This document shows, piece after piece, positions 2,736 through 30,500 of a DNA stretch of 39,560 nucleotides. The translations under genes were made by a program, and so were the position numbers. The DNA is from Acidobacteriaceae bacterium (GTDB lineage Bacteria > Acidobacteriota > Terriglobia > Terriglobales > Acidobacteriaceae): NCBI GenBank assembly GCA_003159355.1, contig PLPA01000283.1, forward strand, positions 43,621 to 83,180, written 5' to 3'. How positions within the stretch are numbered: the stretch's first letter is position 1; each line of letters opens with the position of its first letter. Below the pieces are notes generated by a model that saw only the letters and a list, made by a program, of their open reading frames with translations, was not told where the DNA came from and searched no databases.

Positions 2736-2761
2736 ACCCGCCTCCGAAGAAAGGAACGACT

Positions 2762-2890
2762 ATGAAAAGCAATACTCGCAGCTATTCGAACGGCAGTACC
2801 GACGCCACCATCGCGCCAATGCAGGTGGCCACCAGTACCTATCACGCCACCAATCACAACCTGGTTTTTACGGCGCGCAATCTGTTCTAG
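2762..2890 (+). CDS. Small 42-aa ORF (MKSNTRSYSNGSTDATIAPMQVATSTYHATNHNLVFTARNLF), unknown function
   Basis: ATG preceded by AAGAAAGGA with 6-nt spacing, 26 nt after the TonB receptor stop, same strand; shorter than the ORF-track threshold. Confidence 0.6.
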   Translation: MKSNTRSYSNGSTDATIAPMQVATSTYHATNHNLVFTARNLF

Positions 2891-2959
2891 TACCGCAAAT
2901 GCCCGGTTTACAGTTTATCGGAAACATTGTGTGTAGTTGCTGCTCATGGGGAATGTTGG

Positions 2960-4345
2960 ATGAGAGTCATTGCAAGAGTGATGACGATTGCCGCTCCGTT
3001 TGCGCTGGTGCTGATTTGCGGTTTTGCACCCGAACCGGCACAAAGCCCAGCGGCGGATATTATCGTTACTGCCGCGCTAGTCTATGATCCGTTGGCGGCC
3101 TTGCGCGGAGAAGAACGCTTTCCCAAGGGCGCGCAATTGCTCGTGATTCACGCGGGCAAAGCGGGTTCCAACCCGGAGCCGCTGGTGACAGGCTTTGCGG
3201 CTACCGCGGACGCCAATGTTTCCTTCGACGCCAAGACCGTACTATTCGCTGGTAAAAAAACCGCGGGCGACCCATGGCAGATATGGGAACTGACGATTGC
3301 AGACCATTCGCTGCGGAAGATTGTCGCGGATGCAAACGGCGCCATTCGCCCGCTCTACCTGCCTGGCGGCCGCCTGGTCTATGCGCACCGCACTTACAAG
3401 GGCTATCGACTTGAAGCAGCGCAATTGGATGGCTCCGCAGTTCAGCCACTCAGTTTCTTGCAAGCCAGCACACTACCTGCGTCAGTGCTGAAGGATGGGC
3501 GCATTCTCTTTGAAGCCGGCTTCCCTTTTGGTTCCGGATCGACGCCGGAACTGTTCCTGGTTTACTCGGATGGAAGCGGAGTCGAATCCTACCGCTGCGA
3601 TCACGGCACGGCGCGCTGGGAAGGAACACAGTTGGCCTCTGGCGATGTGGTGTTCACGCACGGCGCAACATTGGCGAAGTTCACGTCGTCTTTGGCAGCG
3701 GAGGAGCGCATCGTAGCGCCGCGCGCCGAATATGCCGGCGCGATTGCCGAGACAGCCACTGGCGCATGGCTTGTGAGCGTGCGATCCGGCGCTGGAACGC
3801 ACTACACATTGAAGCTGTGGAAACCGGGCGCGGCGGCACTGCAAACATTACTGGCTAAAAGCGGCGAGGATATTGTCGAGCCAGTTCTTGTGGCAGCGCA
3901 TACAACGCCCAAGCGTCACCCCTCCGGGCTGCACGACTGGAGCTACGCCAATCTGCTTGCCCTCGATTCGCGCCTCTCGCGCGATGGCGATCTTCGCGTT
4001 GCACCTGCATCGGTGCGGCTGGAGACACAGGACGCTCAAGGCCGCACTGTCATCACTGGCACAGCTCCGGTTGAGGCGGATGGTTCCTTCTTTGCAAAAG
4101 TGCCCGCCGAACAGCCGATTCGCTTTGTGCTGCTTGATAAAAAGGGCGCAGTGCTGCGGCAGGAGCACGGATGGTTCTGGATTCGCCGCGGAGAACAGCG
4201 CTACTGCGTGGGCTGCCACACGGGGCCGGAACGCTCGCCGGTGAATCGCTTGCCGGCCGCGCTGCTGCGCACCACAACGCCCGCCGATCTTACAGGCGTG
4301 AAGGAGCCACGCGAGTCGCAACACGGAACGCCAGGAGGCAACTGA
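2960..4345 (+). CDS. Exported TolB-like/HzsA-related protein with one CxxCH motif (CVGCH)
   Basis: Signal peptide MRVIARVMTIAAPFALVLICGFA; propeller-like repeats; C-terminal ...ADGSFFAKVPAEQPIRFVLLDKKGAVLRQEHGWFWIRRGEQRYCVGCHTGPERSP, resembling the hydrazine synthase alpha middle domain-related family; start chosen at 2960 rather than 2927. Confidence 0.75.
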   Translation: MRVIARVMTIAAPFALVLICGFAPEPAQSPAADIIVTAALVYDPLAALRGEERFPKGAQLLVIHAGKAGSNPEPLVTGFAATADANVSFDAKTVLFAGKKTAGDPWQIWELTIADHSLRKIVADANGAIRPLYLPGGRLVYAHRTYKGYRLEAAQLDGSAVQPLSFLQASTLPASVLKDGRILFEAGFPFGSGSTPELFLVYSDGSGVESYRCDHGTARWEGTQLASGDVVFTHGATLAKFTSSLAAEERIVAPRAEYAGAIAETATGAWLVSVRSGAGTHYTLKLWKPGAAALQTLLAKSGEDIVEPVLVAAHTTPKRHPSGLHDWSYANLLALDSRLSRDGDLRVAPASVRLETQDAQGRTVITGTAPVEADGSFFAKVPAEQPIRFVLLDKKGAVLRQEHGWFWIRRGEQRYCVGCHTGPERSPVNRLPAALLRTTTPADLTGVKEPRESQHGTPGGN

Positions 4346-4346
4346 G

Positions 4347-6038
4347 ATGAATTTCCGCTTTCTTCTTCTATTTTCCGCCGTCTCCGTTTCTGCTGCGCAT
4401 CTCACTCTTGCTGCACAGCAGTCACCCGCACAGAATCCTCATGGCGCGCAAGCGCCGTCTGCGCCACCGCAGGCCGCGCCGGTGATTCGTTTTGAAGATG
4501 CGAGCGATAAGGCGGGCATTAACTTTACGCACAGTTACGGGTCGCGCCAGATGGCATCGCTGCTCGAAGATACTGGCGCAGGCTGCGTGTGGTTCGACTA
4601 CAACAACTCCGGTCTTGAGTCTCTCTATGTGTTGAACGGACGGCCGCTGGACGATTCGATGCATCCGTTTCCGCTGAAGGTCAAGCCGAATCCTCTGCCG
4701 CACAATCATCTTTATCGCAACAACGGCGACGGCACATTTACCGACGTGACAGAGAGTTCCGGGCTCAATCCCGAGATCTATGGAATGGCCGTGACGGCTG
4801 CCGACTATGACAACGACGGCTTTGTCGATCTGCTGGTGACCGGATACGGCAAAACGATTCTCTACCACAATGACGGCAACGGGCACTTTACCGATGTGAC
4901 CAAGAAGGCCGGCATCAATGTGGACGGTTGGGCCATCAGTTCGACGTGGCTGGATTACGACAAGGATGGCTGCGTCGATCTGTTTGTGGGCCGCTATGTG
5001 AAATTCGATCCAAAGTACCGCGCCTTCTATGCGCCGGACGGCTATCCGGGGCCGCTGGACTACGCTGGCGAGACAAACAAACTTTTTCACAACAACTGCG
5101 ATGGAACCTTCACCGATGTCACCGACAAGTCGGGCATCGGAGCCGATGTGGGCCGCACGATGGGCGTGACCGCGGCGGACTTCGACAACGACGGCTGGGA
5201 CGACATTTACGTTTCCAACGACCGCACGGAGAACTTCCTCTTCCGCAACAAGCATGATGGAACCTTTGAAGAGATTGGCAGCGATACGGGCACGGCTTAT
5301 GGACAAAATGGCGAGTCTACTTCGTCTATGGGACCGGTTTTTGCCGACCTTGAGGGGCGGGGATGGCTGGACCTGTGGGTCACAGATGGGCGCTACAACC
5401 GTTTGCTGCGCAACACGGGCAAGATGAGCTTTGAAGACTTGGGAGCAACGAATGGCGTCTCGCAGGCGAATGCGCAATATGCGAGTTGGGGCACGGGTAT
5501 TTACGACTTCGACAACGATGGGCTGCTCGACATTCTCATCTTCCATGGCGCGCTCATTCAGCAGATTCCGCAAGAGCATACGCTTTTTCGCGGAATAGGC
5601 GACGGTAAGTTCGTGGACGTTTCGCGCGAGGCAGGCCCTGTGCTGAGCGTGCGCACGACGGCGCGAGGCGCATGTTTCGCCGACTACGAAAACAATGGGA
5701 AAGTGGATGCTTTCGTGGTGAATCTGGGATCGAAGGGGACGCTGCTCCACAACGTTTCGGCGAATACAGGCCACTGGATTGCGATCAAGCTGAAGGGAAC
5801 AAAGAGCAACCGCGACGGCATTGGAGCAAAGGTGGAAGTCTTTGCGACAGGCAAGCGCCAAACGGCAGAACGCGTGGCTGGCTCGGGATATCTGTCGCAG
5901 AACGACGAGCGCCTGCACTTCGGTTTGGGCGCTGCGACGACTGTGGACAAACTCATCCTTCACTGGCCGAGCGGACGCGAGCAGACGCTCGAAAACCTGA
6001 CCGTGGACCGTGTGCTTACTGTGGAGGAACCTAAATGA
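4347..6038 (+). CDS. CRTAC1-family protein (FG-GAP/VCBS repeats plus ASPIC/UnbV domain)
   Basis: Repeated DYDNDGFVDLLVTGYG / DYDKDGCVDLFVGRY / DFDNDGWDDIYVSND motifs; C-terminal IKLKGTKSNRDGIGAKVEVFATGKRQTAERVAGSGYLSQNDERLHFGLG (ASPIC/UnbV). Confidence 0.93.
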   Translation: MNFRFLLLFSAVSVSAAHLTLAAQQSPAQNPHGAQAPSAPPQAAPVIRFEDASDKAGINFTHSYGSRQMASLLEDTGAGCVWFDYNNSGLESLYVLNGRPLDDSMHPFPLKVKPNPLPHNHLYRNNGDGTFTDVTESSGLNPEIYGMAVTAADYDNDGFVDLLVTGYGKTILYHNDGNGHFTDVTKKAGINVDGWAISSTWLDYDKDGCVDLFVGRYVKFDPKYRAFYAPDGYPGPLDYAGETNKLFHNNCDGTFTDVTDKSGIGADVGRTMGVTAADFDNDGWDDIYVSNDRTENFLFRNKHDGTFEEIGSDTGTAYGQNGESTSSMGPVFADLEGRGWLDLWVTDGRYNRLLRNTGKMSFEDLGATNGVSQANAQYASWGTGIYDFDNDGLLDILIFHGALIQQIPQEHTLFRGIGDGKFVDVSREAGPVLSVRTTARGACFADYENNGKVDAFVVNLGSKGTLLHNVSANTGHWIAIKLKGTKSNRDGIGAKVEVFATGKRQTAERVAGSGYLSQNDERLHFGLGAATTVDKLILHWPSGREQTLENLTVDRVLTVEEPK

Positions 6039-7963
6039 ACCGGCGAGCGCAACATGGGTTTCACTTTGGAGTTTGCGCGGGATTTGCCGCCGCGAGCGTG
6101 GCGTTGCTTTCGGTCGAACTGTGGACCGGCGGGAATGTTCGCGCAGCCGCGCAGCCAGAGACGAGCGCGACAGAGGATTATTCTTCGCCGCTTGAGGTTT
6201 TGCTTTCGCCGGATGGCGCGCGGCTCTATGTGCTCTGCCAGCAAAGCAACGAGGTACGCGTGTTGAATGCGGCCAGCTTCGCGGTGATCAAAAACATTGC
6301 GATGGGCCGTGTGCCGCGTGGATTTTCGCTTTCTTTCAAGGGCGACAAGTTGTTTGTGACGAACTCCTGGGACGATACGCTCTCGGTGATCGATACAAAA
6401 ACACTTGCCGTGGTGGCCACATGGAGCGTGGGCGCAGAGCCGTCGAGCGTGGTTGAGGACCGTGCAGGCAAACGGCTGTTTGTGGCCAATCGGATCAGTG
6501 GCGACATCGCCGTCCTAGATGCTCAGACCGGCGTGGAAGAGAAGCGCCTGCTGGCTGGGCGCGGCGCGAGCTATCTGGCACTCTCACCCGACGGTAGCCG
6601 CATTTATGTGACTCATGTTTACCCGAAGATCGTCCCGCGTCAGACCGGGTTGGAAAATCGGATGGAGCCGGAGTCGGAGATCACGGTGATCGATGCGGAG
6701 CGCGCAGTTGTGATAGATCGCGTGCCGCTGCACGCGATTGCCGGCGTCTTTCATTTGGCGCTCTCCGCCGATGGACGGCTGGGCGTTGCCGCCGAATACC
6801 ATCCAAAAAATTTGATTCCGCTGGCGCACGTGGAACACGGCGGCACTTTCACCTATTCGCTCGAAGTGTTTGGCGCGGATGTGGGAAAGGCTGCTCCGAT
6901 TGAAGTGCCGCTGGATGAGTTGGAGCGCTATGCCTCGCAGCCTTTCGGCGTGGCCATTGCGCCGGACAAGTCGCGCGTTTACGTTACCTGCGGGGGTTCG
7001 GAGATTGTGACCGTGGTCGATGTGCCGCGCCTGCTTCGCTTCATTCACGCGCACACCGGTCTCTTCGCGCAAGATCTCTCTGCCAGCGCCAATTATGTTG
7101 TGACACGCATTCCCGTGGGACTGAATCCGCGCGGGCTGGCGCTTTCGCGTGACGGACGCAGGCTGTTTGTAGCAAACCGCCTGGATGACACCGTGAGCAT
7201 GATCGACACGCGCACTAATCGCGTTGCCTCCACTATCACGCTGGCTGGACCGAAGACGATCTCTCAACTGCGTCACGGCGAGCAGACATTTTATACTTCG
7301 CGCTATTCGTTTCAAGGCCAGATGGGCTGCGCCAGTTGCCACATCGATTCCACCTTCGACGGCATTCAATGGAACCTGGAACCGGATGGCTTTGGCCGCA
7401 ACACGGTGGACAACAAGATCCTTGAGGACATCAAGGACACGGAGCCGTATAAATGGACCGGAACCAACCCGAACATTCCAACCGAGTGTGGACCGAGGAC
7501 TGAAAAGTTCTTCTGGCGTTCAGAGAACTACGACAATCTCACACTTGCCGATTTAGCTGCCTACGTTCGCAGTCTGGCTCCGCGCCCCAATCGCTGGCGA
7601 CAGGCAAACGGCGAGCTTACGCCAGCGCAGGAGCGCGGCAAAGCGATCTTCGAGCGCGCCGTGGACAAGTTCAAGAAGCCGATTCCCGAATACAATCGCT
7701 GCTCCTATTGCCACAGTGGCCCCAAAGGCACGAGTCAAATAATCTTTAACGTGGGGACGCGCAAACCCAACGACAATACAGGACTGCTGAAGGCTCCCAT
7801 GCTAACCAATATCGCGCTCACCGCCCCTTACCTGCACGATGGGTCGGCGCGTTCGCTGGAAGAGATATGGACGATCTACAACCCGGACGACAAGCACGGT
7901 CGGACCAACGATTTGACCAAGGATGAACTTAACGATCTGATCGAGTACCTCAAGTCTCGATAA
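6035..7963 (+). CDS. YVTN beta-propeller fused to di-heme cytochrome c peroxidase/MauG-like domain
   Basis: YVTN-type repeats (LYVLCQQSNEVRVLNAASFAVIKNI, RLFVANRLDDTVSMIDTRTNRV) followed by two CxxCH motifs (CASCH, CSYCH) and KAPMLTNIALTAPYLHDGSARSLEEIW, typical of the CCP/MauG family; ATGA overlap with upstream gene. Confidence 0.9.
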   Translation: MNRRAQHGFHFGVCAGFAAASVALLSVELWTGGNVRAAAQPETSATEDYSSPLEVLLSPDGARLYVLCQQSNEVRVLNAASFAVIKNIAMGRVPRGFSLSFKGDKLFVTNSWDDTLSVIDTKTLAVVATWSVGAEPSSVVEDRAGKRLFVANRISGDIAVLDAQTGVEEKRLLAGRGASYLALSPDGSRIYVTHVYPKIVPRQTGLENRMEPESEITVIDAERAVVIDRVPLHAIAGVFHLALSADGRLGVAAEYHPKNLIPLAHVEHGGTFTYSLEVFGADVGKAAPIEVPLDELERYASQPFGVAIAPDKSRVYVTCGGSEIVTVVDVPRLLRFIHAHTGLFAQDLSASANYVVTRIPVGLNPRGLALSRDGRRLFVANRLDDTVSMIDTRTNRVASTITLAGPKTISQLRHGEQTFYTSRYSFQGQMGCASCHIDSTFDGIQWNLEPDGFGRNTVDNKILEDIKDTEPYKWTGTNPNIPTECGPRTEKFFWRSENYDNLTLADLAAYVRSLAPRPNRWRQANGELTPAQERGKAIFERAVDKFKKPIPEYNRCSYCHSGPKGTSQIIFNVGTRKPNDNTGLLKAPMLTNIALTAPYLHDGSARSLEEIWTIYNPDDKHGRTNDLTKDELNDLIEYLKSR

Positions 7964-7973
7964 GGGAGATGTG

Positions 7974-9113
7974 ATGAAAAAGCTCTGTATGATTGCAATG
8001 TTGCTAATTGCTGCCATAAATGCATATTCCGCGTCACCAGCGTCCGTGTCTAAGCCGGCAAATGGAGCGCATAAATCTCATGCCGCGCAAGCGGCGTCTG
8101 CCGCACCGCAAGTGCTGCCGCGCTTCCGTTTTGAAAACTTTACCACCGCCAACGGCCTTCCCAACAATCACGTCTTCGCGGTACTTGTCGATGGAGATCG
8201 CATCTGGGCGGGAACGGAGAATGGATTGGCGGTCTACGAGAACCATGTCTGGAAGGTCTACACGACCGCGGATGGGTTGGCTCATCGCGCCGTCATCTCG
8301 CTGGCTCTGGACAAGAACACCGGCGATGTTTGGGCTGGAACCATGGGCGGGCTAAGCCGGATTTCAGGCGGACACATCGACAGCTTCACGCAGTTGAACT
8401 CAGGGCTGAGCAACAACGTCGTCTACAACATTTCAATCGAAGGCGAGAATGTATGGATTGCCACAGCCGCCGGCGGATGCCGGCTCAACCTGCACACCAA
8501 TCAGTGGTCGCTCTACAACGAGCGCAACACGCCCATGTTCGAGATATGGAATTATGCAGTTTCCGCGACGCCTACCAAGGTCTTTTACGGCGTTTGGGGC
8601 AGTGGCATTCTTGAATACGATCAGAAGACCGCGAAGTGGACCAGGTATGACGATCCGGACGGCGAAACCGAAACGGTGGTGATGAAGGATCAGGGGCTGA
8701 TCCACGAGATCGTCACCTCGGTCAGTTATATGGAGAAGGAGAATGTTTTGTGGGCAGCTACGTATTTTGGCGATAGCCATTATGATGGCCGTTACTGGCA
8801 CAACTTTCTCACCAAAGATAGCGGTCTTCCATCGAATTTTACCAATTATGTGAAAGGCGTGGACGGCAAGCGCGCTTGGTTCGGAACCGACAAAGGACTT
8901 GCTTATTATGACGGCGAAAATTGGTTCGTCTATCGCCCTTCACTCACCGATGGCAAGCCGGAGATGACGGTGCGCAATGCAAAGGGCATCGTAACGCCCG
9001 TCGCAGTGACCACCGCTCCGGCGCACAACTATATCCTTGGCATCGATTTTCAGGGCAACGACATTTGGGTTGCAACCGCTGACGGACTGAGCCACGGAAT
9101 TCGTCAGCCGTGA
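7974..9113 (+). CDS. Exported two-component-regulator-type beta-propeller protein (stand-alone, no kinase domain)
   Basis: Repeats such as IWAGTENGLAVYENHVWKVYTTADGLAHRAVISLALDKNTGDVWAGTMGGLSRI; signal peptide; RBS GGGAGA just before the ATG at 7974. Confidence 0.85.
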   Translation: MKKLCMIAMLLIAAINAYSASPASVSKPANGAHKSHAAQAASAAPQVLPRFRFENFTTANGLPNNHVFAVLVDGDRIWAGTENGLAVYENHVWKVYTTADGLAHRAVISLALDKNTGDVWAGTMGGLSRISGGHIDSFTQLNSGLSNNVVYNISIEGENVWIATAAGGCRLNLHTNQWSLYNERNTPMFEIWNYAVSATPTKVFYGVWGSGILEYDQKTAKWTRYDDPDGETETVVMKDQGLIHEIVTSVSYMEKENVLWAATYFGDSHYDGRYWHNFLTKDSGLPSNFTNYVKGVDGKRAWFGTDKGLAYYDGENWFVYRPSLTDGKPEMTVRNAKGIVTPVAVTTAPAHNYILGIDFQGNDIWVATADGLSHGIRQP

Positions 9114-9210
9114 GAAACCGGATCGCCATGACGGCACAAACTCAGATGCGAAATGTCACTGTGATCTTCTGTACGGATAAACAAGCTGGAACCAGCAAGG
9201 AGTTGTTGTG

Positions 9211-10677
9211 ATGCGCAAGAGATGGTTATTGGTTATCTTCGGCATCTTGGTTACTGGTGTAGCGGTCCGCTGCCTGGGCCAGGATGCAGCTAAGAATATG
9301 GACACGAGCACGGGTAAGAAAGTATGCGAGTGTGGCGCGCATCCGCCGGGACCGCCAAGAGACCGCACCGTAACCCCGTATGCTGGTACGCCGGACGACT
9401 TGAAGCCATTCGGCAAGTTTACGCCGAGTTATGATGTCAACTATATTCGTCCAAACATCTACATGGGCGCGGCGCGGAAGATTCCCGATCCCGCGGATAT
9501 TACGGAGGTGCGCATCGGATTTATCGGTCCGATCGAGCATCACCCCGACCAGGTTTTTGGGCTGCGGATGCTGCATGGCGCGCAGATGGCGATCGATGAG
9601 GCCAATGCCCGCGGCGGTTACGGGGGCAAGCCCTTCAAGCTGATGGCGCATAACGACTACGATAACTGGCAGGCCAAGACCGTTTATGGTCCGGACCGGC
9701 CCACAGACTCAGATATATGGGGATCGTCTTCGAATCAAGCTGTCAATATGGTTTACGACGACGAGGATTGGGCGATCTTTGGCTCGATCAGCTCCGAGAC
9801 CACGCACATCGTACTGCGCGTGGCGTTGCGTGCCGAGATTCCCGTGGTGAACTCGGAAAATACCGATCCCACCGTTCCAGAGACTACGATTCCGTGGTAC
9901 TTCGGCGCTTTGCAGGATGACCGGCAGCAGTCTTACACGTTGGCTCGCCACATTTTTACCGAGCTGGGGCTGAAACGCGTAGCGCTGTTCAGGGTAAACA
10001 ACCGCTATGGCCGCTTCGGAGTAGGCAAGTTCCGCGATGCGGCGCGCCGTCTGGGCCATCCGCTGGTGATTGAGCAGAAGTATCTGCCGGGCGACACGGA
10101 CTATTCGCAGCAGTTGAAGGTGATTCGCGATGCGCGGGCCGATGCGGTTGCTATCTGGGCCGATGAGGAACAGACGGCGCTGTTCCTCAAACAGTTACGG
10201 GCAGCGGGAATGAAACAGCGCGTCTTTGGCGCATATCGCACACTGGGTCCGGCGTTGCTGGCTGAGGCGGGAGATGCGGCCGAGGGCTTCGAAGCGGTCT
10301 ACCCCTACGATCCAACGCGCAACGACCCACGCTGGATCGACTTCAACAAGCGATACGAAGACCAATTCCATGAGAAGCCGGATCATTACGGCGCGTTGGC
10401 CTTCGACGCAATGAATGCTTTGCTCGATTCAATCTGCATGGCTGGACTCAATCGCGCGCGGATTCACGATGCTCTTGCCAACATTGAAGAGTACGACGGC
10501 GTAACTGGGCACATGACCTTCGACCCCAACGGGAAGAACGTGGCGCCGTTGTATTTGGGCACGGTACATGATGGCACAATCACATACAGGGTTGCCACGA
10601 TGGAAGCACGCTCGGTGCGGCCAGTGTCTTCTACCGCGCCGCAAATAATGCCCACTGGCGAGCCGCGCAAACAGTGA
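9211..10677 (+). CDS. ABC transporter substrate-binding protein, Leu/Ile/Val-type periplasmic binding fold (orphan)
   Basis: EVRIGFIGPIEHHPDQVFGLRMLHGAQMAIDEANARGGYGGKPFKL...VWAIFGSIS-type fold and FRVNNRYGRFGVGKFRDAARRLG...; AAGGAG upstream; no permease or ATPase gene next to it. Confidence 0.85.
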   Translation: MRKRWLLVIFGILVTGVAVRCLGQDAAKNMDTSTGKKVCECGAHPPGPPRDRTVTPYAGTPDDLKPFGKFTPSYDVNYIRPNIYMGAARKIPDPADITEVRIGFIGPIEHHPDQVFGLRMLHGAQMAIDEANARGGYGGKPFKLMAHNDYDNWQAKTVYGPDRPTDSDIWGSSSNQAVNMVYDDEDWAIFGSISSETTHIVLRVALRAEIPVVNSENTDPTVPETTIPWYFGALQDDRQQSYTLARHIFTELGLKRVALFRVNNRYGRFGVGKFRDAARRLGHPLVIEQKYLPGDTDYSQQLKVIRDARADAVAIWADEEQTALFLKQLRAAGMKQRVFGAYRTLGPALLAEAGDAAEGFEAVYPYDPTRNDPRWIDFNKRYEDQFHEKPDHYGALAFDAMNALLDSICMAGLNRARIHDALANIEEYDGVTGHMTFDPNGKNVAPLYLGTVHDGTITYRVATMEARSVRPVSSTAPQIMPTGEPRKQ

Positions 10678-10805
10678 CTCTTACTCTCCGCAACAGATGT
10701 CAGCCGAAGCTGCACGACAAATATGGCTCATTCGAGCGAATCTACGTTGTCCAGTCGGCTCTGCGGGGGAGAATCGTCAAAAAGAAGAAAGACGGGGTTT
10801 CCTCA

Positions 10806-11117: not shown

Positions 11118-11134
11118 ACGAGAGAGGTTCATAA

Positions 11135-16926: not shown

Positions 16927-16927
16927 G

Positions 16928-19900: not shown

Positions 19901-20083
19901 GTTCCCATCCTCTGGGCGTCTGGTATCGGATCAGATGTCATGAAACCGATTGCCGCTCCGATTGTTGGCGGCATGATCACCTCTGCTATTCATGTCCTCA
20001 TTCTGGTGCCCGTCTTCTTTGTCATGATTAAAAAGCATGAACTGCGAGTTGGCAAGCTGCACGCGATAAGAGAGGATAATTAA
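16928..20083 (+). CDS. cusA: CusA-like heavy-metal RND efflux pump (monovalent Cu/Ag class)
   Basis: Inner-membrane RND architecture; TM4 signature [15 protein letters not shown] and C-terminal [46 protein letters not shown]; start reassigned from 16883 to 16928, after the cusB stop. Confidence 0.9.
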   Translation: [1051 protein letters not shown]

Positions 20084-20464
20084 TTTATAGTGTAGCTCCC
20101 GCTGCGACAGGCAGTAGCGCTGGTGCGGCTCTTACCCGCCCCTCAGCAACGAAAATCCTCTGTTCAAGTTATTATGTTTCTTCCGCCTCGCGGCGGGTAC
20201 ACCCCTGCTTAACAGTATCAATCCAAAGATGGAGGCCCGGCATCATCATTGAGATTGATGGTGGAATCATCCTTAATGCCCAAGACATAAGCCCCAAGAT
20301 CGTCGAAGATCATGTGCAATCACTCATCGGCATTTCGCAGGCACTTGGAACTATGGCTTCAGGTTGCGCGAAATCACTACCACCCGTACTCCCGCGTTCA
20401 TGACTGCCGGTGGTGCTGACGCATAGTGCGCGGGAGAGTACTGTACGCGACATTTGGAGGCTTC

Positions 20465-23400
20465 ATGAAGATTCGTATTCCATTATCAATCGCCGTGGTG
20501 AGTTTGCTGTTTATTCTCGCCAGTTATTCCGCGAATGCACAACTGACAGAGTCCACACTCATAGGATCAGCTGTTGATGCCACTGGTTCCGTGGTTCAAC
20601 ACGCGATCGTTTTGGCTACCAACGAGTCAACCGGTATAAACCGCGCGGCGACAAGCGGCAACGATGGCTCCTTTACCATAACGGACTTGGCGCCGGGCAA
20701 TTATTCCGTCCATGTCAAGGCGCAAGGCTATAAAACCTTCGAGCAGACCCACCTGCAACTGAATGTTGGGACCACCACGCAGGTTAATGCGCGCCTTGAG
20801 GTAGGGCAGATTCAGGAAACTGTCGAGGTGATGGCCGATCAATCGCAAGTTGCCGTGTCGAAGGACGGGCGTCTTTCAGACACATTGCATGAAACGCAGA
20901 TTACTCAGCTTCCGATTCCCGTCCGCGACGTCTTTTTCCTGCCAAGCCTTAATGCGGGGGCTACAAATATTCCAGGTCAAAATATGTCGTACAAACTCAC
21001 CAATTCGCCAACCGTCACTGTCAATGGAAACCGCTTTCGCGGGAATAATTATGTTCTCGACGGGTCGATGAACACCCATACTCTCAATGAAGGAGAGCCG
21101 GGCATTGTTCCCAGCATTGAATCCATTGAGGAAGTGCAGGTTCAAACGGGAAATTTCTCCAGCGAATACGGGCGCGGCAACGGTTCCGTAGTCAATATGC
21201 GAACTAGATCCGGGACGAACGAGTTTCACGGGAAAGCGTGGGAGTATCTCAAAAACACCGATCTCAACGCGAGAAATTACTTTGCCTCACAGCGAACGCC
21301 ACAAGTATTCAATCAATTCGGAGCGCGCGTAGGCGGCCCAATCATCCGAAAGAAGACCTTTTTCTTTGGATCGTACGAAGGCACGCGCAATGCTCTGGCG
21401 CAAGCTCTCTCGTTTCAAGTTGAAACGCCGGAGTTCGCAAACTATGTGGAAACCACCGCGCCCAATAGCATTGCGGCGATGCTGTTGAAGGACTTTCCAC
21501 CCGTGAAGCCCATGCCTGGAACCACAACGGAGTATCTGAACGAGACGGATTTTACAACGCCCCAGGGCACGGTGATTCCAGGAACAGGAACTGATCACGA
21601 TATGCTCCATGACTATCTCCGATACGATCAGTACCTGACTCGCGTCGATCATACGGTCAATGGTGGAAACGATACATTGACGGGTCGCTGGATCAACGAG
21701 TTTGAGCGGAGCCTGGGTGCGACAAACTCCCTGAGTTCAAATTTGGGCGTGTCCATGCGCGGTTTTCTTGATCCTTATAACGGCGCATTTGGAAATCTCA
21801 ATGTAGGTGAGATCCATGTTTTCCACGGCAACGTGAACGACGCCCGCTTTTCCTTCCAGGACGACATCATCAGCTATGCTAGGCCTGACGCGCAATATCC
21901 AGCCATCAGCATCACGGGAATCAGCGCGCAATTCGGCGACCCTGCCAGCTTGGGGAGCCGCATCCGCACTTACGAGTACCGTGACACTCTAAGCTCTATC
22001 ATCGGCAGGCACCTGCTGCGCTACGGCGGGGAGTTCAGGGATATTTTCATCGCGCTTAGCGTGGGCGCTCCAAAAGCAGGCAGTTTCAGTTTCAATAGCC
22101 TGCTCGCTTTTGCCAATGACAGTCCCTATTATCAAAGCCTTGTTGTGAATCCAGCGACGGGATATCCAACGGCGGTTCAGCATGATTACACTTCGCATGA
22201 AGCCGGATTATTTCTTCAGGACGATTGGAAGGTGAATGCGCGGTTGACCATCAACTCTGGAATCCGATGGGATTTTTTCGGCGGGCCAAGCGAGCGCTAT
22301 GGAAAACTTTCATCCATTACTTTTGGACCGGGAACGACCTTTGACGAGCAGCTTGCCAGCGCCTCTGTCGGACAGGTGTCGAGCCTCTTCCATGCGCAGA
22401 GGGACAATTTGTCGCCGCGTGTAGGCCTTGCCTATGATCCATTCGGAGATGGCAAGAGCTCGATTCGGGCAGGCTTCAGCCTCTCCTATCAGCCGATTCA
22501 CGGATTGACGCTTCTGAGCGGTACTGGAAATCCGCCATTTGCAGTTACGGCTATCTTGCAGCCAAATGCCGGATATGGCACAAGCATCCTATACGGAATC
22601 CCGGTCCCTTACAATCCGGAATTCAAGACAACATTGAATGCGCAAGGTGGAATCGTAAGTCCGCCGGGGACTCCTCCGATTCGCATTTCTCCCTGGCTTA
22701 TCGATCCAAAGCTCAAGACGCAATACAGCGAGAACTGGTTCTTGAGCCTTCAACATGAGTTTGCGAAGGGCTGGATTGCGGAACTCGGATACATCGGCAC
22801 GACCGGGGTCAATCTCGAACGACGGGACGACCTGAACAGGTTCGATGGCGATTTGCTCATCAACAATGGCATTCAAAAACGAATCAATCAAAACTGGGCC
22901 GGTATTACTTATGCGACGAACGGCGTCTCCTCCAACTACAACGCCATGACCGCCGAAATCCGCCATCAGGCGAGTAAAACACTTATGGTGCAAGCCAACT
23001 ATCGGTGGTCCAAGTGGTTCGACGATGAGTCTGACACCGCTTCATCTTTCTGGGCCGATAATTCGCAGGGATCGCGCGGAGCGCAAGATGCGGCCTGCTT
23101 GAAATGTGAGCGTGGGCCTTCGGAATTCGACATCCCGAAGCGCTTTACTGCATCCGCGGCATGGACCCCTGAGTACTTCAAGGGCCACAACTTACTCGCA
23201 AAGGCGGCTGACAACTGGCAGTTATCAACCATTGTCGCGGTGCAATCGGGACGTCCTTTCAGCGTTTACTGCTCGGCGTCTTTTCAAGCAGGATGCGATT
23301 GGAAGGCTGATGGTGGAGGCGGCATTGGAAGCGGATACTATGACCGCCCGATGGCCCCGCCGGCAGGCTCAATCAAGAAGAAGTTCAGCCAACAGGAATA

Positions 23401-23728
23401 CGTGAATGGACTCTTCAATCCCAATGTTTTTCCAATCCCTGTTCTGGGCACAGATGGCACATTGAAGCGCGACGCATTCCGCGGCTCGCGCCAGATCAAT
23501 ACCAATCTCTCACTCGCGCGCGGCTTCAAAATCGCAGAGTGCAAGGAGTTCCACGTGCAATGGCAGGCGTTCAACGTCATCAACACCACCAATCTCTATA
23601 TGCCCAACGGCGACATGGCGTTGGCTCTGGAGCCAAACAAAACCTTCTCCACAACTTCAATCTTCGGCAAATCCACGCAAGCCTTTGATCCAAGGATCAT
23701 GCAGGTTAGTGCTACATTCTCATTTTGA
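20465..23728 (+). CDS. TonB-dependent receptor with N-terminal CarboxypepD_reg-like domain
   Basis: Signal peptide MKIRIPLSIAVVSLLFILASYSANA; STLIGSAVDATGSVVQHAIVLATNESTGINRAATSGNDGSFTITDLAPGNYSVHV; ...YGRGNGSVVNMRTRSGTNEFHGKAWEYLKNTDLNARNYF; GGAGG RBS. Confidence 0.94.
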   Translation: MKIRIPLSIAVVSLLFILASYSANAQLTESTLIGSAVDATGSVVQHAIVLATNESTGINRAATSGNDGSFTITDLAPGNYSVHVKAQGYKTFEQTHLQLNVGTTTQVNARLEVGQIQETVEVMADQSQVAVSKDGRLSDTLHETQITQLPIPVRDVFFLPSLNAGATNIPGQNMSYKLTNSPTVTVNGNRFRGNNYVLDGSMNTHTLNEGEPGIVPSIESIEEVQVQTGNFSSEYGRGNGSVVNMRTRSGTNEFHGKAWEYLKNTDLNARNYFASQRTPQVFNQFGARVGGPIIRKKTFFFGSYEGTRNALAQALSFQVETPEFANYVETTAPNSIAAMLLKDFPPVKPMPGTTTEYLNETDFTTPQGTVIPGTGTDHDMLHDYLRYDQYLTRVDHTVNGGNDTLTGRWINEFERSLGATNSLSSNLGVSMRGFLDPYNGAFGNLNVGEIHVFHGNVNDARFSFQDDIISYARPDAQYPAISITGISAQFGDPASLGSRIRTYEYRDTLSSIIGRHLLRYGGEFRDIFIALSVGAPKAGSFSFNSLLAFANDSPYYQSLVVNPATGYPTAVQHDYTSHEAGLFLQDDWKVNARLTINSGIRWDFFGGPSERYGKLSSITFGPGTTFDEQLASASVGQVSSLFHAQRDNLSPRVGLAYDPFGDGKSSIRAGFSLSYQPIHGLTLLSGTGNPPFAVTAILQPNAGYGTSILYGIPVPYNPEFKTTLNAQGGIVSPPGTPPIRISPWLIDPKLKTQYSENWFLSLQHEFAKGWIAELGYIGTTGVNLERRDDLNRFDGDLLINNGIQKRINQNWAGITYATNGVSSNYNAMTAEIRHQASKTLMVQANYRWSKWFDDESDTASSFWADNSQGSRGAQDAACLKCERGPSEFDIPKRFTASAAWTPEYFKGHNLLAKAADNWQLSTIVAVQSGRPFSVYCSASFQAGCDWKADGGGGIGSGYYDRPMAPPAGSIKKKFSQQEYVNGLFNPNVFPIPVLGTDGTLKRDAFRGSRQINTNLSLARGFKIAECKEFHVQWQAFNVINTTNLYMPNGDMALALEPNKTFSTTSIFGKSTQAFDPRIMQVSATFSF

Positions 23729-23736
23729 GTTACTCG

Positions 23737-23781
23737 CCTGTCTGCGGCCTGAGAGATTATACTTCTCTGGCCACAGACAGG
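23737..23781. terminator. Intergenic stem-loop, probable terminator or attenuator between the TonB receptor and the polyferredoxin gene
   Basis: cctgtctgcggcctgagaga-ttatact-tctctggccacagacagg inverted repeat (one internal mismatch, 2-nt bulge) 8 nt after the stop codon; no U-tract. Confidence 0.5.
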
Positions 23782-23837
23782 TGATTCCACTGTCGCCAGA
23801 TAGGTTGCGGCACGAGTTTAATTTGGAGGTCCGTGCC

Positions 23838-25361
23838 TTGACAACGCGAATTCGCCGTATATCGCAGATTGCATTTTTTTTCTTATTTGTCTGGTTGCTG
23901 GCGCGCGCAAAGATGAATTACTCATCTGGCGCAGATACGCGGACGTTGCATCCCGTCAACTACTTTTTCAAGCTGGACCCGCTGGTTTCCCTCGTCAATT
24001 TGCTGGCAGGCCACGCGCTTTACCTTACACTCACATGGTCGCTCGTAATCCTGATTCCGACCTTTTTTCTGGGGCGCTTCTTCTGCGGCTGGATCTGCCC
24101 CCTGGGCAGTTTGAATCAGTTCCTCGGCGGCATCCGTTCGAAGTCCATGGGGCGCAAGGCGCTGATTGAAGCCAATCGCTATAAGAAGTGGCAGACGGCG
24201 AAGTATTTTCTGCTGATCGCCGGGCTGCTGGCCGCACTCTTCCGCGGCAGTATCGTTGGTTGGATCGACCCCTTCAGCCTGCTGGTGCGATCGATGGGAG
24301 TGTCGATTCTGCCGGCCGCTGCCAGCAAGAAATATTACGTCGTCTATCAGCCGCACTATTGGCCGAGCGTGATGATGGGCGCGGTCTTTCTGGCGCTACT
24401 ATTGATGAATCTGCGGGTGACGCGCTTCTGGTGCCGTGCGTTGTGTCCTCTGGGCGCGCTTCTGGGCGTGGCCGCGCGGTGGTCGTTTCTGGGACTGCAC
24501 AAGGATACGACCACCTGCAACCAGTGCAGCCGCTGCATGATCAACTGCCAAGGCGGCGACGATCCAATCGGCGGCGCGCCGTGGCACAAGGCGGAGTGCC
24601 ACCTTTGCATGAACTGCGTCGAGGCCTGCCCGCACGGAAGCCTTGAGTTCCGATTCTTTCGCAAACTCCAAACGCCGCCGGAGGTTGTGGGAACGAATCT
24701 AAGCCGACGAAGAGCATTGATCGCGGCTGTGACCGGGCTGGCCGTCGTGCCTTTGTTGCGCGCGCAATCCGCGTTGGGCAAGAGCCGCAACGAGCGGCTG
24801 ATCCGGCCGCCGGGAGCACTTGACGAAACCGATTTCCTGTCACGGTGCATCCGCTGCGGCGAGTGCGTGAGAGCGTGTCCCAACAATGCACTACAGCTCG
24901 CGTTTACTGAGGCTGGGCTGATGGGTTTGTGGAGCCCGGTCGTGACGCCGAAGATCGGCTACTGCGAGCCAAGTTGCGTGCTATGTTCGGAGGTCTGTCC
25001 CACGGGAGCGATTCAGGAGATGACGCCCCGGCAAAAGGGTTGGATCGCGGTGGAAGGTATCGCTTCCACGCCGCTGCTCATCGGCACGGCGGTTTATGAC
25101 CAGAGACTTTGCTTGCCGTGGGCCAAGGCCACCGATTGCGTCGTCTGCCTGGAGTGGTGCCCAGTAGCGCCCAAGGCGATCTATGTCAAGGACGCCATGG
25201 TGATGGACGCGGAAGGCAAGCCCAGGATGCTGAAACAGCCGCACATCGACCTCAATCGCTGCGTGGGCTGCGGGGCATGTGAGTTCGCCTGCCCGCTCCA
25301 GGAGCAACCGGGCGTGTACGTGACCAGTAGCGGAGAGAGCCGGTCACGTCTTCGTTCTTAA
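23838..25361 (+). CDS. Membrane-bound polyferredoxin, NapH-NapG-like fusion (putative quinol dehydrogenase)
   Basis: NapH-type FFCGWICPLGSLNQFLG and CRALCPLGALLG motifs after TM helices; multiple [4Fe-4S] motifs (CNQCSRCMINC, CHLCMNCVEACP, CIRCGECVRACP, CVLCSEVCP, CVGCGACEFACP); internal SRRRALIAAVTGLAVVPLLRA; TTG start at 23838 with GGAGGT upstream. Confidence 0.85.
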   Translation: MTTRIRRISQIAFFFLFVWLLARAKMNYSSGADTRTLHPVNYFFKLDPLVSLVNLLAGHALYLTLTWSLVILIPTFFLGRFFCGWICPLGSLNQFLGGIRSKSMGRKALIEANRYKKWQTAKYFLLIAGLLAALFRGSIVGWIDPFSLLVRSMGVSILPAAASKKYYVVYQPHYWPSVMMGAVFLALLLMNLRVTRFWCRALCPLGALLGVAARWSFLGLHKDTTTCNQCSRCMINCQGGDDPIGGAPWHKAECHLCMNCVEACPHGSLEFRFFRKLQTPPEVVGTNLSRRRALIAAVTGLAVVPLLRAQSALGKSRNERLIRPPGALDETDFLSRCIRCGECVRACPNNALQLAFTEAGLMGLWSPVVTPKIGYCEPSCVLCSEVCPTGAIQEMTPRQKGWIAVEGIASTPLLIGTAVYDQRLCLPWAKATDCVVCLEWCPVAPKAIYVKDAMVMDAEGKPRMLKQPHIDLNRCVGCGACEFACPLQEQPGVYVTSSGESRSRLRS

Positions 25362-25615
25362 GAGCGCTCGTTCGCCTCGATTGGTTTGCGAGAGTCTCTC
25401 CGGCGCAGCCAGCCAAAGACGCCGGCGGCGGCCAGAATGGCAGCGGCAATCCAACTGATGGCGGCCGCGCGGTACTCGGATTCCCGCGCGCTGGCCAAAG
25501 CTGTCTGCACCAGCAAAACTTCCAGCAGCAACCACAACTCGGCAAGAGCCCAAAACCACCACGGGCGCTTGCGTATTGTAATCATAACAACATCGTCGCC
25601 GTTCGTCATAATCAT
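25358..25615 (-). CDS. Small membrane protein, putative RdhB-like membrane anchor (85 aa, two predicted TM helices)
   Basis: ATG overlaps the rdhA stop (4 nt); hydrophobic segments WWFWALAELWLLLEVLLVQTALA and AAAISWIAAAILAAAGVFGWL; position matches rdhB in rdhAB operons. Confidence 0.65.
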   Translation of the reverse strand: MIMTNGDDVVMITIRKRPWWFWALAELWLLLEVLLVQTALASARESEYRAAAISWIAAAILAAAGVFGWLRRRDSRKPIEANERS

Positions 25616-26985
25616 CCTCTTCTATCGGATGGCTGATCTTTCGTCCACCATTGTTCTGGGTCATGCTGCTTGCCGTAGCCGAAGGCGTTGTCCATGATGC
25701 GAAAGACGCCATCCGTGGCCGGCGCAATCGACGCTATGGCCTTCACACCTTCGTGAATCCATGCCTGATCGCCCTTCGTGTACGGGCAACTGGCAAGACA
25801 CACGCCGCAAGCCGAACCCGACTTCTGCCAATATTCAAAACACTTGTAAGAGTCCTCGAACCAGGTTTTGTGTCCGGGATTATTCCACGGGCCTTTGGTT
25901 TTGAAACTCGGCTCGTCGTCGAACGAAAGGGCACGCGAAGGGCACACCTCAGCGCACTTCTTGCACGTCTTGCAGAATTCTACCAGGCCGAAATCGACAG
26001 GTTTGTCGTATGCCATGGGCAGATCGGTAAAGACCTTGCACAAGCGAACCGCGGGACCGAACTCAGGCGTGACCAGCTTATTGAGGCGGCTCAATTCGCC
26101 AATGCCCGCATCGAGCGCGAACGGTATGCTCTGTGCCGTATCGTTCACGCAAGGTATCGCCTCATAGCCGAGGCCGCGGATAAACACGGCCAGCGATGAG
26201 ACCACAAAAGCAGAGTGGCTATAGCCGAGCGCCGAGGCTGCATCGCCAAGTGGCGTGGGCGTGCGAGCGAGCAGTTCGATATCCATCGGAATGGCGATAG
26301 CCACCACCCACTTCATCTTCCGGGGGATCACAAACTTGGTGTCCGTCACCTCCGGCACATCGACATCTTCAAAGACAATATCTTTATCTTTCTCTTTCTC
26401 ATCTTGCCGCGGCACTTGCAGGTTGACATAGCTCTCGTTCATCGGCGCGATGCCGACAAGCCGGGCGCCGTAGAGTCGCGCCGCAGCCTTCACGGTGTTC
26501 GCCATCTCCTCCGGCGAAGCCGTATAACGCTGGGCGCTTGGTTCTGTTGATGTGCGCCCAGGAGTGCGCGTCCATGACAGCAGGCCCGTGCCGGGTCTGG
26601 AGCTGCGCATCACAGTCCAAGCGCCTTCGCTCAACTTCTGATCGGGCAGACTGAATCCGGGCTTCTTCTCGTTGGTCCACGCGATCAGGCGCTTGGCCTT
26701 GGAGACTTGCTCCGCTTCAAAGGAACCAGTTCCCTCGTGTTGCGTCTTCAATGGACGATAGAGCGCAAACATATCGAAGCCCGAAAATCGCTTGTAATCG
26801 GCGTTCGTTTCACCCAATGTGGGCCGGACCACAGTCTTGACCCACCGGGCGCGTTTTCGTTGGTTGCTCCCAGTGCCGACACCGGTCACAAGCGCTCCAA
26901 GCCACCCAAGCGTGCCGGTTGCCGCAACAAATCCGCCAGCCTTCAACAGGCTGCGTCGTCCTATTGGCTTACGCAGTTCTTCCAC
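25612..26985 (-). CDS. rdhA: Reductive dehalogenase catalytic subunit (RdhA-like), Tat-exported
   Basis: Twin-arginine GRRSLLKAGGFVAATGTLGWLGALV; FIRGLGYEAIPCVNDTAQSIPFALDAGIGELSRLNKLVTPEFGPAVRLCKVFTDLPMAYDKPVDFG; CKTCKKCAEVCPSRAL and YKCFEYWQKSGSACGVCLASCPY, the RdhA-type FeS motifs. Confidence 0.9.
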   Translation of the reverse strand: MEELRKPIGRRSLLKAGGFVAATGTLGWLGALVTGVGTGSNQRKRARWVKTVVRPTLGETNADYKRFSGFDMFALYRPLKTQHEGTGSFEAEQVSKAKRLIAWTNEKKPGFSLPDQKLSEGAWTVMRSSRPGTGLLSWTRTPGRTSTEPSAQRYTASPEEMANTVKAAARLYGARLVGIAPMNESYVNLQVPRQDEKEKDKDIVFEDVDVPEVTDTKFVIPRKMKWVVAIAIPMDIELLARTPTPLGDAASALGYSHSAFVVSSLAVFIRGLGYEAIPCVNDTAQSIPFALDAGIGELSRLNKLVTPEFGPAVRLCKVFTDLPMAYDKPVDFGLVEFCKTCKKCAEVCPSRALSFDDEPSFKTKGPWNNPGHKTWFEDSYKCFEYWQKSGSACGVCLASCPYTKGDQAWIHEGVKAIASIAPATDGVFRIMDNAFGYGKQHDPEQWWTKDQPSDRRG

Positions 26986-27260
26986 GTTAACAATCCTCTC
27001 AGCCGAAGTCTAATCCGCCAGTCGAGAACAGTCGTCAGCCGAAAGGTTGAAGCCTCGATCCATCTTTCTGTGGCTTCATTACTCATTCAAATTAACGAAG
27101 CGCTCCATTCGCTTGCTGTTAGAAGAAGTCGAGTGTTGGTTCCCGTCCGGCAGCGCCGGGGAATGGTACTATGGGATTCATCGGAGCGTGGTGGTTGATT
27201 CTGGCGCAAATCGTCAGCTTGTAGAATTGGGAGCCTATTTTTCCCTAGAGCAGATTCGGT

Positions 27261-27541: not shown

Positions 27542-30500
27542 TTAATATTCCTCGGCAGATTCGGCGGCAGGCAGGATGTCGTTGTTGCGCGCCATCCATA
27601 CATAGAGTGTGGGCAGCAGGAAGATTCCGATAATCAGGTTGGCGAGCAGGCCGCCAACGATAACGATGGCGAAGGGCCTCTGCGAGTCCGAGCCAATGGC
27701 ATGGGAAAAGGCCGCAGGCAGTAGACCCAACGTGGCCACAAGCATCGTCATCATGATGGGTCGCAGACGAAGGACCGCGCCATCGACGGCGGCGTCGATG
27801 ATGTGCTCTTCATAGGAGACTTCCTTACCCTTGGCGCGGGCGCGGAGTTGGTTGATGAACTCGATCATGATGACGCCGGTCTGCACCGAGACGCCGAACA
27901 GCGCCAGGAAGCCGACAGCAGACGAAACTGAAAAATTTGTGTGAGTAAGGAACAGTGCGAGCGGACCGCCGATGGAGGCCATTACTACGCTGACCAAGAT
28001 GAGCAGAGCCCATTTGTAGGAGCGGAACATGGTGTACAGGATCATGAAGATGGCCAGCACCGTGATAGGCACCACGATGGCCATGCGCTTGTCGGCGCGC
28101 TTCTGGCTCTCGTACTCGCCGGCCCATTCCAGGTGGTAACCGTCGGGCAGGCTCACGTTGCGATTGACCTTGGAAATTGCCTCTTCAACCGTGGAACCCA
28201 GGTCTCGTCCGCGCACGGAATACTTGATTGCGATGTAGCGCTGGCCGCCCTCGCGGTTGATCTGCTCGGCGCCGTCGTCGGTGGAAACTCGGGTAAGTTG
28301 CGCGAGGGAGACACGCTCGCCGGATGGTGCGAGAAGGCGCACGTTCTGGATGGCCTCGCGGGTATCGCGAAATTGCTGCTGATAGCGCAGAGTCACATCG
28401 AAGCGGGCCTCGCCCTGCTGCACCTGGGTAACGGCGTTGGCGCCGACCGCAGTCTGCACGGCGTCCTGAATGTCGGCGACGTTGATGCCCCAGCGAGCCG
28501 CGGCGGCGCGGTCCACCTGGAGATTCAGATTGGGTTGACCGACGATGCGAAAGATGCCCAGGTCGCCGACGCCCGGAACCGATGCCATTTGCGTCTGAAT
28601 CTTCTCGGCCTCATGTTCGAGGGTGCGCAAGTCATCGCCATAGAGCTTGACGGCCAGCTCTCCCTTGACGCCGGAGACGGCCTCTTCCATGTTGTCGGAG
28701 ATGGGCTGAGAGTAATTCCAGATCACTCCGGGGAACTTTGATAGCTCTGCGTCGATGGCTGCGATCAACGCTTCCTTGTCTTGATGGAAGACGGGCCGCC
28801 ATTGCTTCTTGGGCTTGAGATCAACAAAGTATTCGGTGTTGAAGAAGCCGGCGGTGTCCGTGCCGTCGTCGGGGCGGCCGGTCTGGCTCACGACCTGCGT
28901 AACTTCAGGGAACGAGGCCATCACCAGGCGCGCCTTGTTGGTGAAGTCAATGCTGGCGGTGGGGCCTTCGCTGGGAGGCAGTGTGCCGCGCACCCAGATG
29001 GAGCCTTCATCAAGGTGGGGAAGGAACTCCGATCCGATGGGGCCGCCCAAAGTGAGATAGACAGCGATGGCAAAGAGGGCAGTTGCGATTCCAACGGTGC
29101 GTTTGCGGTGGAGAATCGCGGAGCGGACAGCCGTGCGATAGTGCCCGGTAAGCCAAAGCAGAAGTGGGTTTTCCCACTCGTTTGCATCCTTGCGGAAGAA
29201 TAGGCTTGCCAGCACCGGAGCGACAAGGATGGCAAAGAGAAGTGCGCCGATCAGGGCAAAGGTGACCGTCCAGGCCATGGGCTTGAAGAGACGGCCCTCG
29301 ACGGCTTGCAAGGTGAAGATGGGCAGGTAAGCGGTGATGATGATGCCGCGCGCGAAGAAGACTGGGCGCAGCACCTCGTGGGCCGCGTTGCTAATTTTCT
29401 GCATTGGCGACCGAGTATCGCCTTTGATGTTGAGATGACGCACCATGTTTTCGATCATGACGACAGAGCCGTCAACGACCATCCCGAAGTCCAATGCGCC
29501 CAGAGAGAGCAGGTTTGCGGGGATGTGGCTGAGATCCAGGCAAATGGAGGCGAACATCAGCGCGACGGGAATTGTGAGCGCAACAATGATGGCGCCGCGC
29601 ACATTGCCGAGAAAGAGAAAGAGAACGATCACAACCAGAATCATTCCCTCGGTCAGGTTGCGCTCGACGGTGTCCACCGTATAGCGCACCAGGTCAGAGC
29701 GGTCGAGAAAGGGAACGATCTTTACGCCCTTGGGCAGGACGTGTTCGTTCAGTTCCTTGACTTTGGCGTGAATGCCGTCGAGGACCGGATCGGAGTCGTC
29801 GCCCTTCTGCAACAGGACGATGCCTTCCACGGTGTCGGGATTATCGACGATCTTTCCGTCGACGCGGTGAATGGCTTTGCCGATCTGTCCGAGGCGAATC
29901 TTGGGACCTTGCGCGACAGTGGCGATATCCTTGATTTTGATGGCCGTGCCGTTCGTGGTCTTGACGACGGTGTTCTCGATGTCCTGCACGCTGGTGAAGA
30001 GGCCGGCGGATTGCACGTTGATTTGCTGCGCGCCTTGCTCGATGAAACTGCCTCCGCCGTTGCTGTTGTTGGCGGCGATCTGCTGCTCGACCTGGGCAAT
30101 ACTCAATCCGTGCGAGACCAGCTTATCGGGATCAAGCTTGATCTGGTACTCCTTGGTGGGTCCGCCAAAACTGGAAACGTCGACCACCCCTTGGACGCCC
30201 TTGAAGGACTTCTCCAGCGTCCAGTCTTCCAACGACTTCTTCTCCATCACGTCGAAGGCGGGGTTGGTGCTTTCCAGGGTATACCAGTAGATTTGGCCGA
30301 CAGGGCTCCAGTCGGTGCCCATTTGAGGAACGAGATTGGCGGGCAGATTAACCTGGCTGAGGCGTTCGAGAACGTGTTCCCGATTGACGTCGCTAGTGGA
30401 GTTGTCGTCGAAGATGAGCATGAGGCTCGATAGGCCGGCCAGCGTCGTCGAGCGAAGATGCGTAAGGTGAGGAATGCCGGCCATCTGAATCTCGACCGGA

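Follow-up and report, generated by a model that had tools for sequence, protein, structure and literature searches.

The locus described here raises the question of whether a member of the Acidobacteriaceae carries the genes of a complete respiratory-type reductive dehalogenase and, if so, how menaquinol would deliver electrons to it. It lies within a stretch of 39,560 nucleotides (the window) of contig PLPA01000283.1 (positions 43,621 to 83,180, forward strand) of the Acidobacteriaceae assembly GCA_003159355.1, in which a first-pass annotation made from the letters alone had proposed an rdhA gene followed by a gene for a small membrane anchor. In our reading, rdhA and rdhB most probably form a periplasm-facing, membrane-anchored reductive dehalogenase operon of the respiratory type, fed with menaquinol at the RdhA/RdhB interface, through an adjoining NapH-NapG fusion protein (NapHG), or by both routes. 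This reading is based on sequence, i.e., on family membership, catalytic and cluster-binding residues, the identity of RdhB, the conserved linkage to NapHG and to a TonB-dependent receptor, and signs of selection. Coordinates are collected in Table 1.

Both genes were found on the minus strand where the first-pass annotation had placed them, overlapping by exactly 4 nt, and the GRRSLLK motif, the RdhA core and the two iron-sulphur (FeS) motifs that it had quoted are all present. The rdhA gene starts with GTG, with a Shine-Dalgarno-like GAGGA 5' of the start. In profile searches, the protein scored 276.8 bits against TIGR02486 (cut-off 160.35, E=3.4e-82) and 45.7 bits against PF13486 (cut-off 24.3), the two families suggested as checks. 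Its best match among PDB sequences is PceA of Sulfurospirillum multivorans (E=6.5e-73), with PceA of Desulfitobacterium hafniense at 2e-52 and QueG at 5.5e-7. Residues Y255, N281 and R314 align with the catalytic Y246, N272 and R305 of S. multivorans PceA (numbers counted along the 4uqu alignment), the correspondence that had been proposed for inspection, and the cluster ligands are arranged as C338-x2-C341-x2-C344-x3-C348P and C382...C393-x2-C396-x3-C400P. Y255, R314 and all eight cluster cysteines are invariant across 28 aligned RdhAs. On these profile scores and residues, RdhA is a member of the reductive dehalogenase family with complete active-site residues and cluster ligands. The first-pass annotation had named QueG as a family whose better match would count against its reading, and the alternative that RdhA is akin to QueG, or is another corrinoid/FeS enzyme, and acts on a substrate without halogen appears very improbable: QueG, the tRNA epoxyqueuosine reductase, shares with reductive dehalogenases a related fold, a corrinoid and two [4Fe-4S] clusters, and RdhA retains a weak match to its model TIGR00276, but this match (39.4 bits) is far under the cut-off of 200, QueG is cytoplasmic and has no anchor, and in the window the PceA-type catalytic Tyr/Asn/Arg, the RR signal and an authentic RdhB anchor are all present.

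An AlphaFold model of RdhA, built with 25 homologues and no ligand (pLDDT 72.9, pTM 0.73), found PceA as its best match (4ur3, E=5.5e-25, TM-score about 0.6), with QueG at about 1e-6, and the QueG alternative was rejected on the profile scores and the folds together. The N-terminal 70 residues of the model are of low confidence. They include the RR motif (residues 10-11, within GRRSLLK), followed by a hydrophobic stretch, and R11 is conserved in at least 90% of homologues, suggesting that RdhA would be exported by the twin-arginine translocation (Tat) pathway. The RdhA of bog_218, a Stordalen Mire Acidobacteriaceae metagenome-assembled genome (MAG) of the same genus (L039 6001-7548; same assembly as G453), carries an extra charged, low-complexity insertion of 59 aa ahead of IVFxDVDVPE that the window RdhA lacks.

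The product of rdhB gave no significant Pfam or NCBIfam match. At loci L039-L043 and L065, rdhA is likewise followed by a gene of this size that overlaps it by 4 nt, and the core S-x2-E-x-E-x2-A (S42, E45, E47, A50) is invariant in 16/16 aligned RdhBs from Acidobacteriota (including Aminicenantes), Sulfurospirillum and Dehalococcoides. Its E45-x-E47 corresponds to the ExE motif described in RdhB proteins (PMC6797604), represented by E61/E63 in D. hafniense PceB (PMC10624902). The core lies in the loop between two hydrophobic helices (about residues 23-41 and 50-68), and since basic residues occur at both outer ends (IRKRP, LRRRDSRK) the positive-inside rule predicts that the ExE loop faces the periplasm, so that RdhB would hold RdhA on the outer side of that membrane, the cytoplasmic one. 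The window RdhB does not have three transmembrane helices (TMHs), a form that is that of the majority of RdhBs and does not define them; two TMHs are predicted for S. multivorans PceB (PMC4585668), thus a two-helix build does not exclude membership, and all Terriglobia and Aminicenantes RdhBs share it. The two helices that the first-pass annotation had noted are no anomaly. On motif and build, the 85-aa protein is a true RdhB; a chance open reading frame was ruled out by the invariant motif and by a dN/dS of 0.30 versus bog_218. An apparent lack of RdhB in Aminicenantes relatives turned out to be an artefact of an over-strict motif (Q....S..E.E), and their RdhBs were found by inspecting the downstream DNA.

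The two genes belong to a block shared with bog_218, the alignment of which runs from just beyond the TonB-receptor gene to a point some 80 bp upstream of rdhA. Besides rdhAB, which the first-pass annotation had recognised, the block holds the convergent napHG and the TonB-receptor gene, which it had overlooked. All four proteins are, as judged by dN/dS, maintained by purifying selection (rdhA 0.15, napHG 0.18 and the receptor 0.06, with rdhB at the upper end of the 0.06-0.30 range). The host, previously described as Acidobacteriota-like, indeed belongs to the phylum, in the family Acidobacteriaceae. Its genome is a MAG of 3.58 Mb in 311 contigs, 89.7% complete and 4.3% contaminated, figures that leave some room for a contig foreign to the acidobacterium; we regard such a binning artefact as extremely improbable, given that the ThyX encoded 8-9 kb away from rdhA shares 78-93% identity with its counterparts in same-genus genomes, which assigns the contig to the genus, and that the block recurs in another genome of that genus, binned separately.

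Within the genus the system is rare. The window genome has a single RdhA above the TIGR02486 cut-off, none of 35 other sampled same-genus genomes has one, and rdhA is known in just 2 of about 80 (the window genome and bog_218). Among 398 genomes of the family, a sample without bog_218, strong matches were restricted to the window genome and G727 (60-66%); across the phylum, 35/396 genomes have an RdhA above the cut-off. In the RdhA tree, the window protein groups with that of bog_218 and then with those of peat MAGs from Bryobacterales, in a Terriglobia clade of nine rows with full support, and Aminicenantes RdhAs are close kin; the nearest RdhAs all come from peat or soil Terriglobia, then from Aminicenantes. 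Shorter RdhA-like proteins of 330-370 aa (TIGR02486 93-112 bits, below the cut-off) occur in several same-genus genomes (L006-L009 and others) and probably constitute a separate RdhA-like family. AhpD/CMD-type peroxidase-related proteins are encoded near the rdh loci of bog_218 (L176 12305-15816), G804 and G805 (L169, L172), followed in bog_218 by a 344-aa RdhA-like protein (86 bits, below the cut-off) and a major facilitator superfamily transporter; an AhpD-like gene lies directly upstream of pceA in S. multivorans (PMC4585668), and none was found adjoining the window rdhA.

The napHG and rdhB genes overlap by 4 nt at their 3' ends. NapHG joins an N-terminal NapH-type membrane/FeS part to a C-terminal NapG-type poly-ferredoxin part, with an SRRRAL...hydrophobic segment resembling an internal Tat or anchor signal in between. 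It falls below the curated cut-offs (NapG 110 of 269 bits; NapH 73-77 of 213-234), as do the separate NapG- and NapH-like proteins from the organohalide-respiration region of Sulfurospirillum, with which its halves align (E=6e-21 and 5e-11); by these scores the fusion is NapGH-like and not NapGH. Its AlphaFold model was uninformative (pLDDT 36, six sequences). Fused NapHG is ordinary in the genus, being present in about 50/80 genomes, mostly at 60-67% identity to the window copy and nearly always without rdhA, and a second napHG lies on contig C144 of the window's own genome. The rdh-linked protein is a distinct paralogue, 83% identical in bog_218 versus about 64% for the widespread housekeeping copy. 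Full-length versions of it occur solely in the two genomes of the genus that carry rdhA, at the same position; a truncated copy (76%) lies at the edge of a contig in G459, a genome that yielded no respiratory rdhA. For the TonB receptor, an orthologue of 89% identity is encoded at the same place in bog_218 and, among 79 same-genus genomes, only there, the next-best homologues (56%) being near neither napHG nor rdhA. A scan for promoters and terminators gave nothing above chance level.

Taken together, these elements suggest the following course of events. RdhA would take up a corrinoid and two [4Fe-4S] clusters, be exported by Tat and be held by RdhB, after which electrons may arrive by either of two routes. 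In the first, menaquinol would be oxidised at the RdhA/RdhB interface, as in D. hafniense PceA2B2; K404, H411, D432 and Y437 of RdhA align with K489, H495, D515 and Y520, located at the menaquinone site in D. hafniense PceA (PMC10624902), so that RdhAB alone may oxidise menaquinol. In the second, electrons would pass from menaquinol to NapHG and then to RdhA, as proposed for S. multivorans, where the NapGH-like pair (SMUL_1541/1542) has been put forward as the link between the quinone pool and PceA: proteomics supports a quinol-dehydrogenase role, the pair is induced by tetrachloroethene (PCE), and its FeS subunit was quantified in PCE-grown cells only (PMC4585668). In this genus NapHG may add to the interface input or replace it. 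The two clusters would then pass electrons to cob(I)alamin, and Y255 and R314 would assist removal of the halogen from the organohalide, a reaction that may conserve energy.

Several observations weigh against this reading, which is drawn from the genes. The Pfam TAT_signal model (PF10518) reaches 13.4 bits on RdhA, below its cut-off of 22.7, and the global TM-score of the RdhA model to PceA is just about 0.6, held down by low-confidence regions. The K/H/D/Y residues are kept even in quinone-free organisms, which weakens the menaquinone-site argument. NapHG is convergent with rdhBA and stands outside their operon, and no NapHG was found within 6-10 kb of the Bryobacterales rdhAB loci examined; NapHG may thus be unrelated to RdhA, and as a universal partner of the clade's RdhA it was excluded. 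Neither the rdhT chaperone nor rdhC lies beside the window rdhA, where no regulator or corrinoid gene was seen either. The roughly 90%-complete bin yielded neither CobS nor CobQ, and CobS was also missing from eight further same-genus genomes tested, including bog_218, so that the cobamide would probably be salvaged. Finally, no cobalamin riboswitch was detected within the window; riboswitch control of the TonB receptor was accordingly rejected, and nothing links the receptor to a corrinoid rather than to an organohalide or other cargo.

Two alternatives take up these points. It is quite conceivable, at only slightly short of an even chance, that RdhAB is self-sufficient, oxidising menaquinol at its own interface, and that NapHG serves a general system or other periplasmic or c-type-haem proteins, e.g., the hydrazine-synthase-like proteins of the same island. 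The conserved menaquinone-site residues, the clade's rdhAB loci without linked NapHG and the housekeeping NapHG of so many genomes devoid of rdhA are in accordance with this view, whereas the restriction of a complete, separate NapHG paralogue to the two rdh-bearing genomes of the genus, at one and the same position, and the PCE-induced pair of S. multivorans argue for a functional link. It is also possible, although we lean against it, that the dehalogenation served by this RdhAB build does not support growth but detoxification or electron disposal, organohalide respiration not being the main energy metabolism: the genome has one rdhA in a genus otherwise without it, and the locus, unlike that of Sulfurospirillum, has no regulator, rdhT or corrinoid genes. 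On the contrary, the Tat-like signal, the RdhB anchor and the quinol-oxidation-site residues indicate a respiratory build, and a respiratory-type operon fed with menaquinol remains our preferred reading.

Among known systems, that of Sulfurospirillum, compared via plasmid pSulSP (L157), is most similar in its RdhA, two-helix RdhB and NapGH-like partner. The window RdhA is 42% identical over 298 aa to one pSulSP RdhA and 32% over its length to the other; PceA as best PDB match, the catalytic residues, the 4-nt rdhA/rdhB overlap, the short two-helix RdhB with its ExE loop and the nearby NapG- and NapH-like proteins are all shared. In contrast, NapH and NapG form one polypeptide in the window, encoded convergently to rdhBA, and a TonB receptor is found instead of adjoining two-component or cobamide-biosynthesis genes. 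The D. hafniense PceA2B2 menaquinol:organohalide oxidoreductase (PDB 8q4h; PMC10624902) has in common with the window the RdhA fold (as modelled for the window protein), the menaquinone-site K/H/D/Y and the RdhB ExE loop, but its PceB crosses the membrane with three helices (TMH1-TMH3) and carries ExE between the last two. Equivalents of TMH2 and TMH3 are retained in the window RdhB, and TMH1, through which PceB contacts PceB in D. hafniense, is absent; no pceC or pceT is present at the window locus. The closest relatives are Stordalen Mire Bryobacterales and Acidobacteriaceae MAGs (L039-L043, L045, L065; RdhA 69-88% identical, same RdhB build), then Candidatus Aminicenantes (L046-L057; 42-48%, same RdhB build). 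NapHG beside rdhB is confined to the Acidobacteriaceae block, whereas most Bryobacterales loci have a TonB receptor adjoining rdhAB that is not orthologous; the receptors of the two groups belong to different subfamilies (about 26% identity), so that an orthologous universal receptor partner was rejected. The reductive dehalogenases of Ca. Sulfomarinibacter (PMC8528874) and the hybrid RdhA with N-terminal helices (PMC6797604) share superfamily and phylum but come from marine or hydrothermal lineages, and the hybrid type has neither a Tat signal nor a separate RdhB.

Adjacent to the block lies a gene set, or island, including hydrazine-synthase-like haem proteins (Table 1), that is also co-located with rdhAB in bog_218 and in the Bryobacterales MAG fen_298. 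The hydrazine-synthase models score far under their cut-offs (184 of 1250 and 50 of 800 bits), thus these proteins are not hydrazine synthases. In fen_298 (L171) the set directly follows rdhAB in the same order as in the window, at 71-89% amino-acid identity (TonB receptor 44%), with homologues of the hydrazine-synthase-like pair at 5997-7472 and 9168-11291; a second such pair lies on the window's contig (L178 5545-9224). The island is near rdhAB in three genomes of two orders (compared with L171, L175 and L176), and the synonymous divergence (dS) of four of its genes is unsaturated, at 0.6-1.0 between orders versus 0.5-0.9 within the genus, suggesting horizontal exchange; for rdhA, dS is 1.5 between orders versus 0.5 within the genus. 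Elsewhere in the clade, the rdhAB loci of G803 and G804 and the second one of fen_298 have no island genes within about 5-10 kb. TolC/HlyD/RND (Cus/Czc-type) efflux sets stand on both sides of the rdh block, at 13979-20083 (+) and 27542-33150 (-), the relative order of the former being preserved in fen_298 (L171, L179).

Table 1. Positions of the features in the window.
Feature	Position	Strand	Remarks
rdhA, reductive dehalogenase catalytic subunit	25612..26985	-	457 aa; TIGR02486 and PF13486
rdhB, membrane anchor	25358..25615	-	85 aa; overlaps rdhA by 4 nt (ATGA)
Putative promoter/leader and ribosome-binding site of rdhA	26986..27065	-	Conserved in L039 (bog_218)
NapH-NapG fusion, quinol-dehydrogenase-like	23805..25361	+	518 aa; TTG start uncertain; convergent with rdhB
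TonB-dependent receptor, Oar-like (CarboxypepD_reg and PF25183 barrel)	20465..23728	+	Co-directional with napHG; exact start uncertain
Strong stem-loop between TonB-receptor gene and napHG	23734..23785	+	-35.6 kcal/mol, z -5.6; core stem shared with L039
Block aligning over its full length with bog_218	20217..27065		6.85 kb, 83.5% DNA identity, not extending into the flanks
Gene set that likewise accompanies rdhAB in bog_218 and Bryobacterales fen_298	27..10677	+	
TonB receptor A	Within 27..10677	+	
Hydrazine-synthase-alpha-like haem protein	2927-4345	+	One CxxCH; PF18582 60.7 bits, above its cut-off
UnbV/FG-GAP protein	4347-6038	+	
Hydrazine-synthase beta-gamma-fusion-like di-haem protein	6035-7963	+	Two CxxCH; NF052342 184 of 1250 bits
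Reg_prop protein	7971-9113	+	
Periplasmic binding protein	9208-10677	+	

A wider proposal, which we consider speculative and rather unlikely as a whole, is that Terriglobia of peat and soil (Acidobacteriaceae and Bryobacterales) share a horizontally exchanged organohalide-respiration island. In its Acidobacteriaceae form, a single-chain NapHG would feed RdhAB, a dedicated TonB receptor would import either the substrate or the cobamide, and a multi-haem complex resembling hydrazine synthase would participate in the same anaerobic chemistry; the hosts would scavenge cobamide and live as facultative dehalogenators of the chlorinated organic matter in peat. As to the substrate of RdhA itself, natural chlorinated aromatics of peat would be the likeliest, a plausible choice given the peat origin of the closest relatives found. 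In the open-licence literature, most subscription journals lying outside it, no report of an Acidobacteriaceae reductive dehalogenase or of organohalide respiration in peat was found; marine Acidobacteriota with reductive dehalogenases, namely Ca. Sulfomarinibacter, are already known (PMC8528874), as are the RdhA and RdhB families, so that the novelty lies mainly in the location, a complete rdhAB with linked NapHG in the Acidobacteriaceae. Acidobacteria rank among the most abundant soil bacteria, and a complete peat rdhAB in both Acidobacteriaceae and Bryobacterales provides named genes to seek in peat metatranscriptomes. The two-helix RdhB and the fused NapHG would moreover constitute a natural experiment on electron transfer from menaquinol to RdhA.

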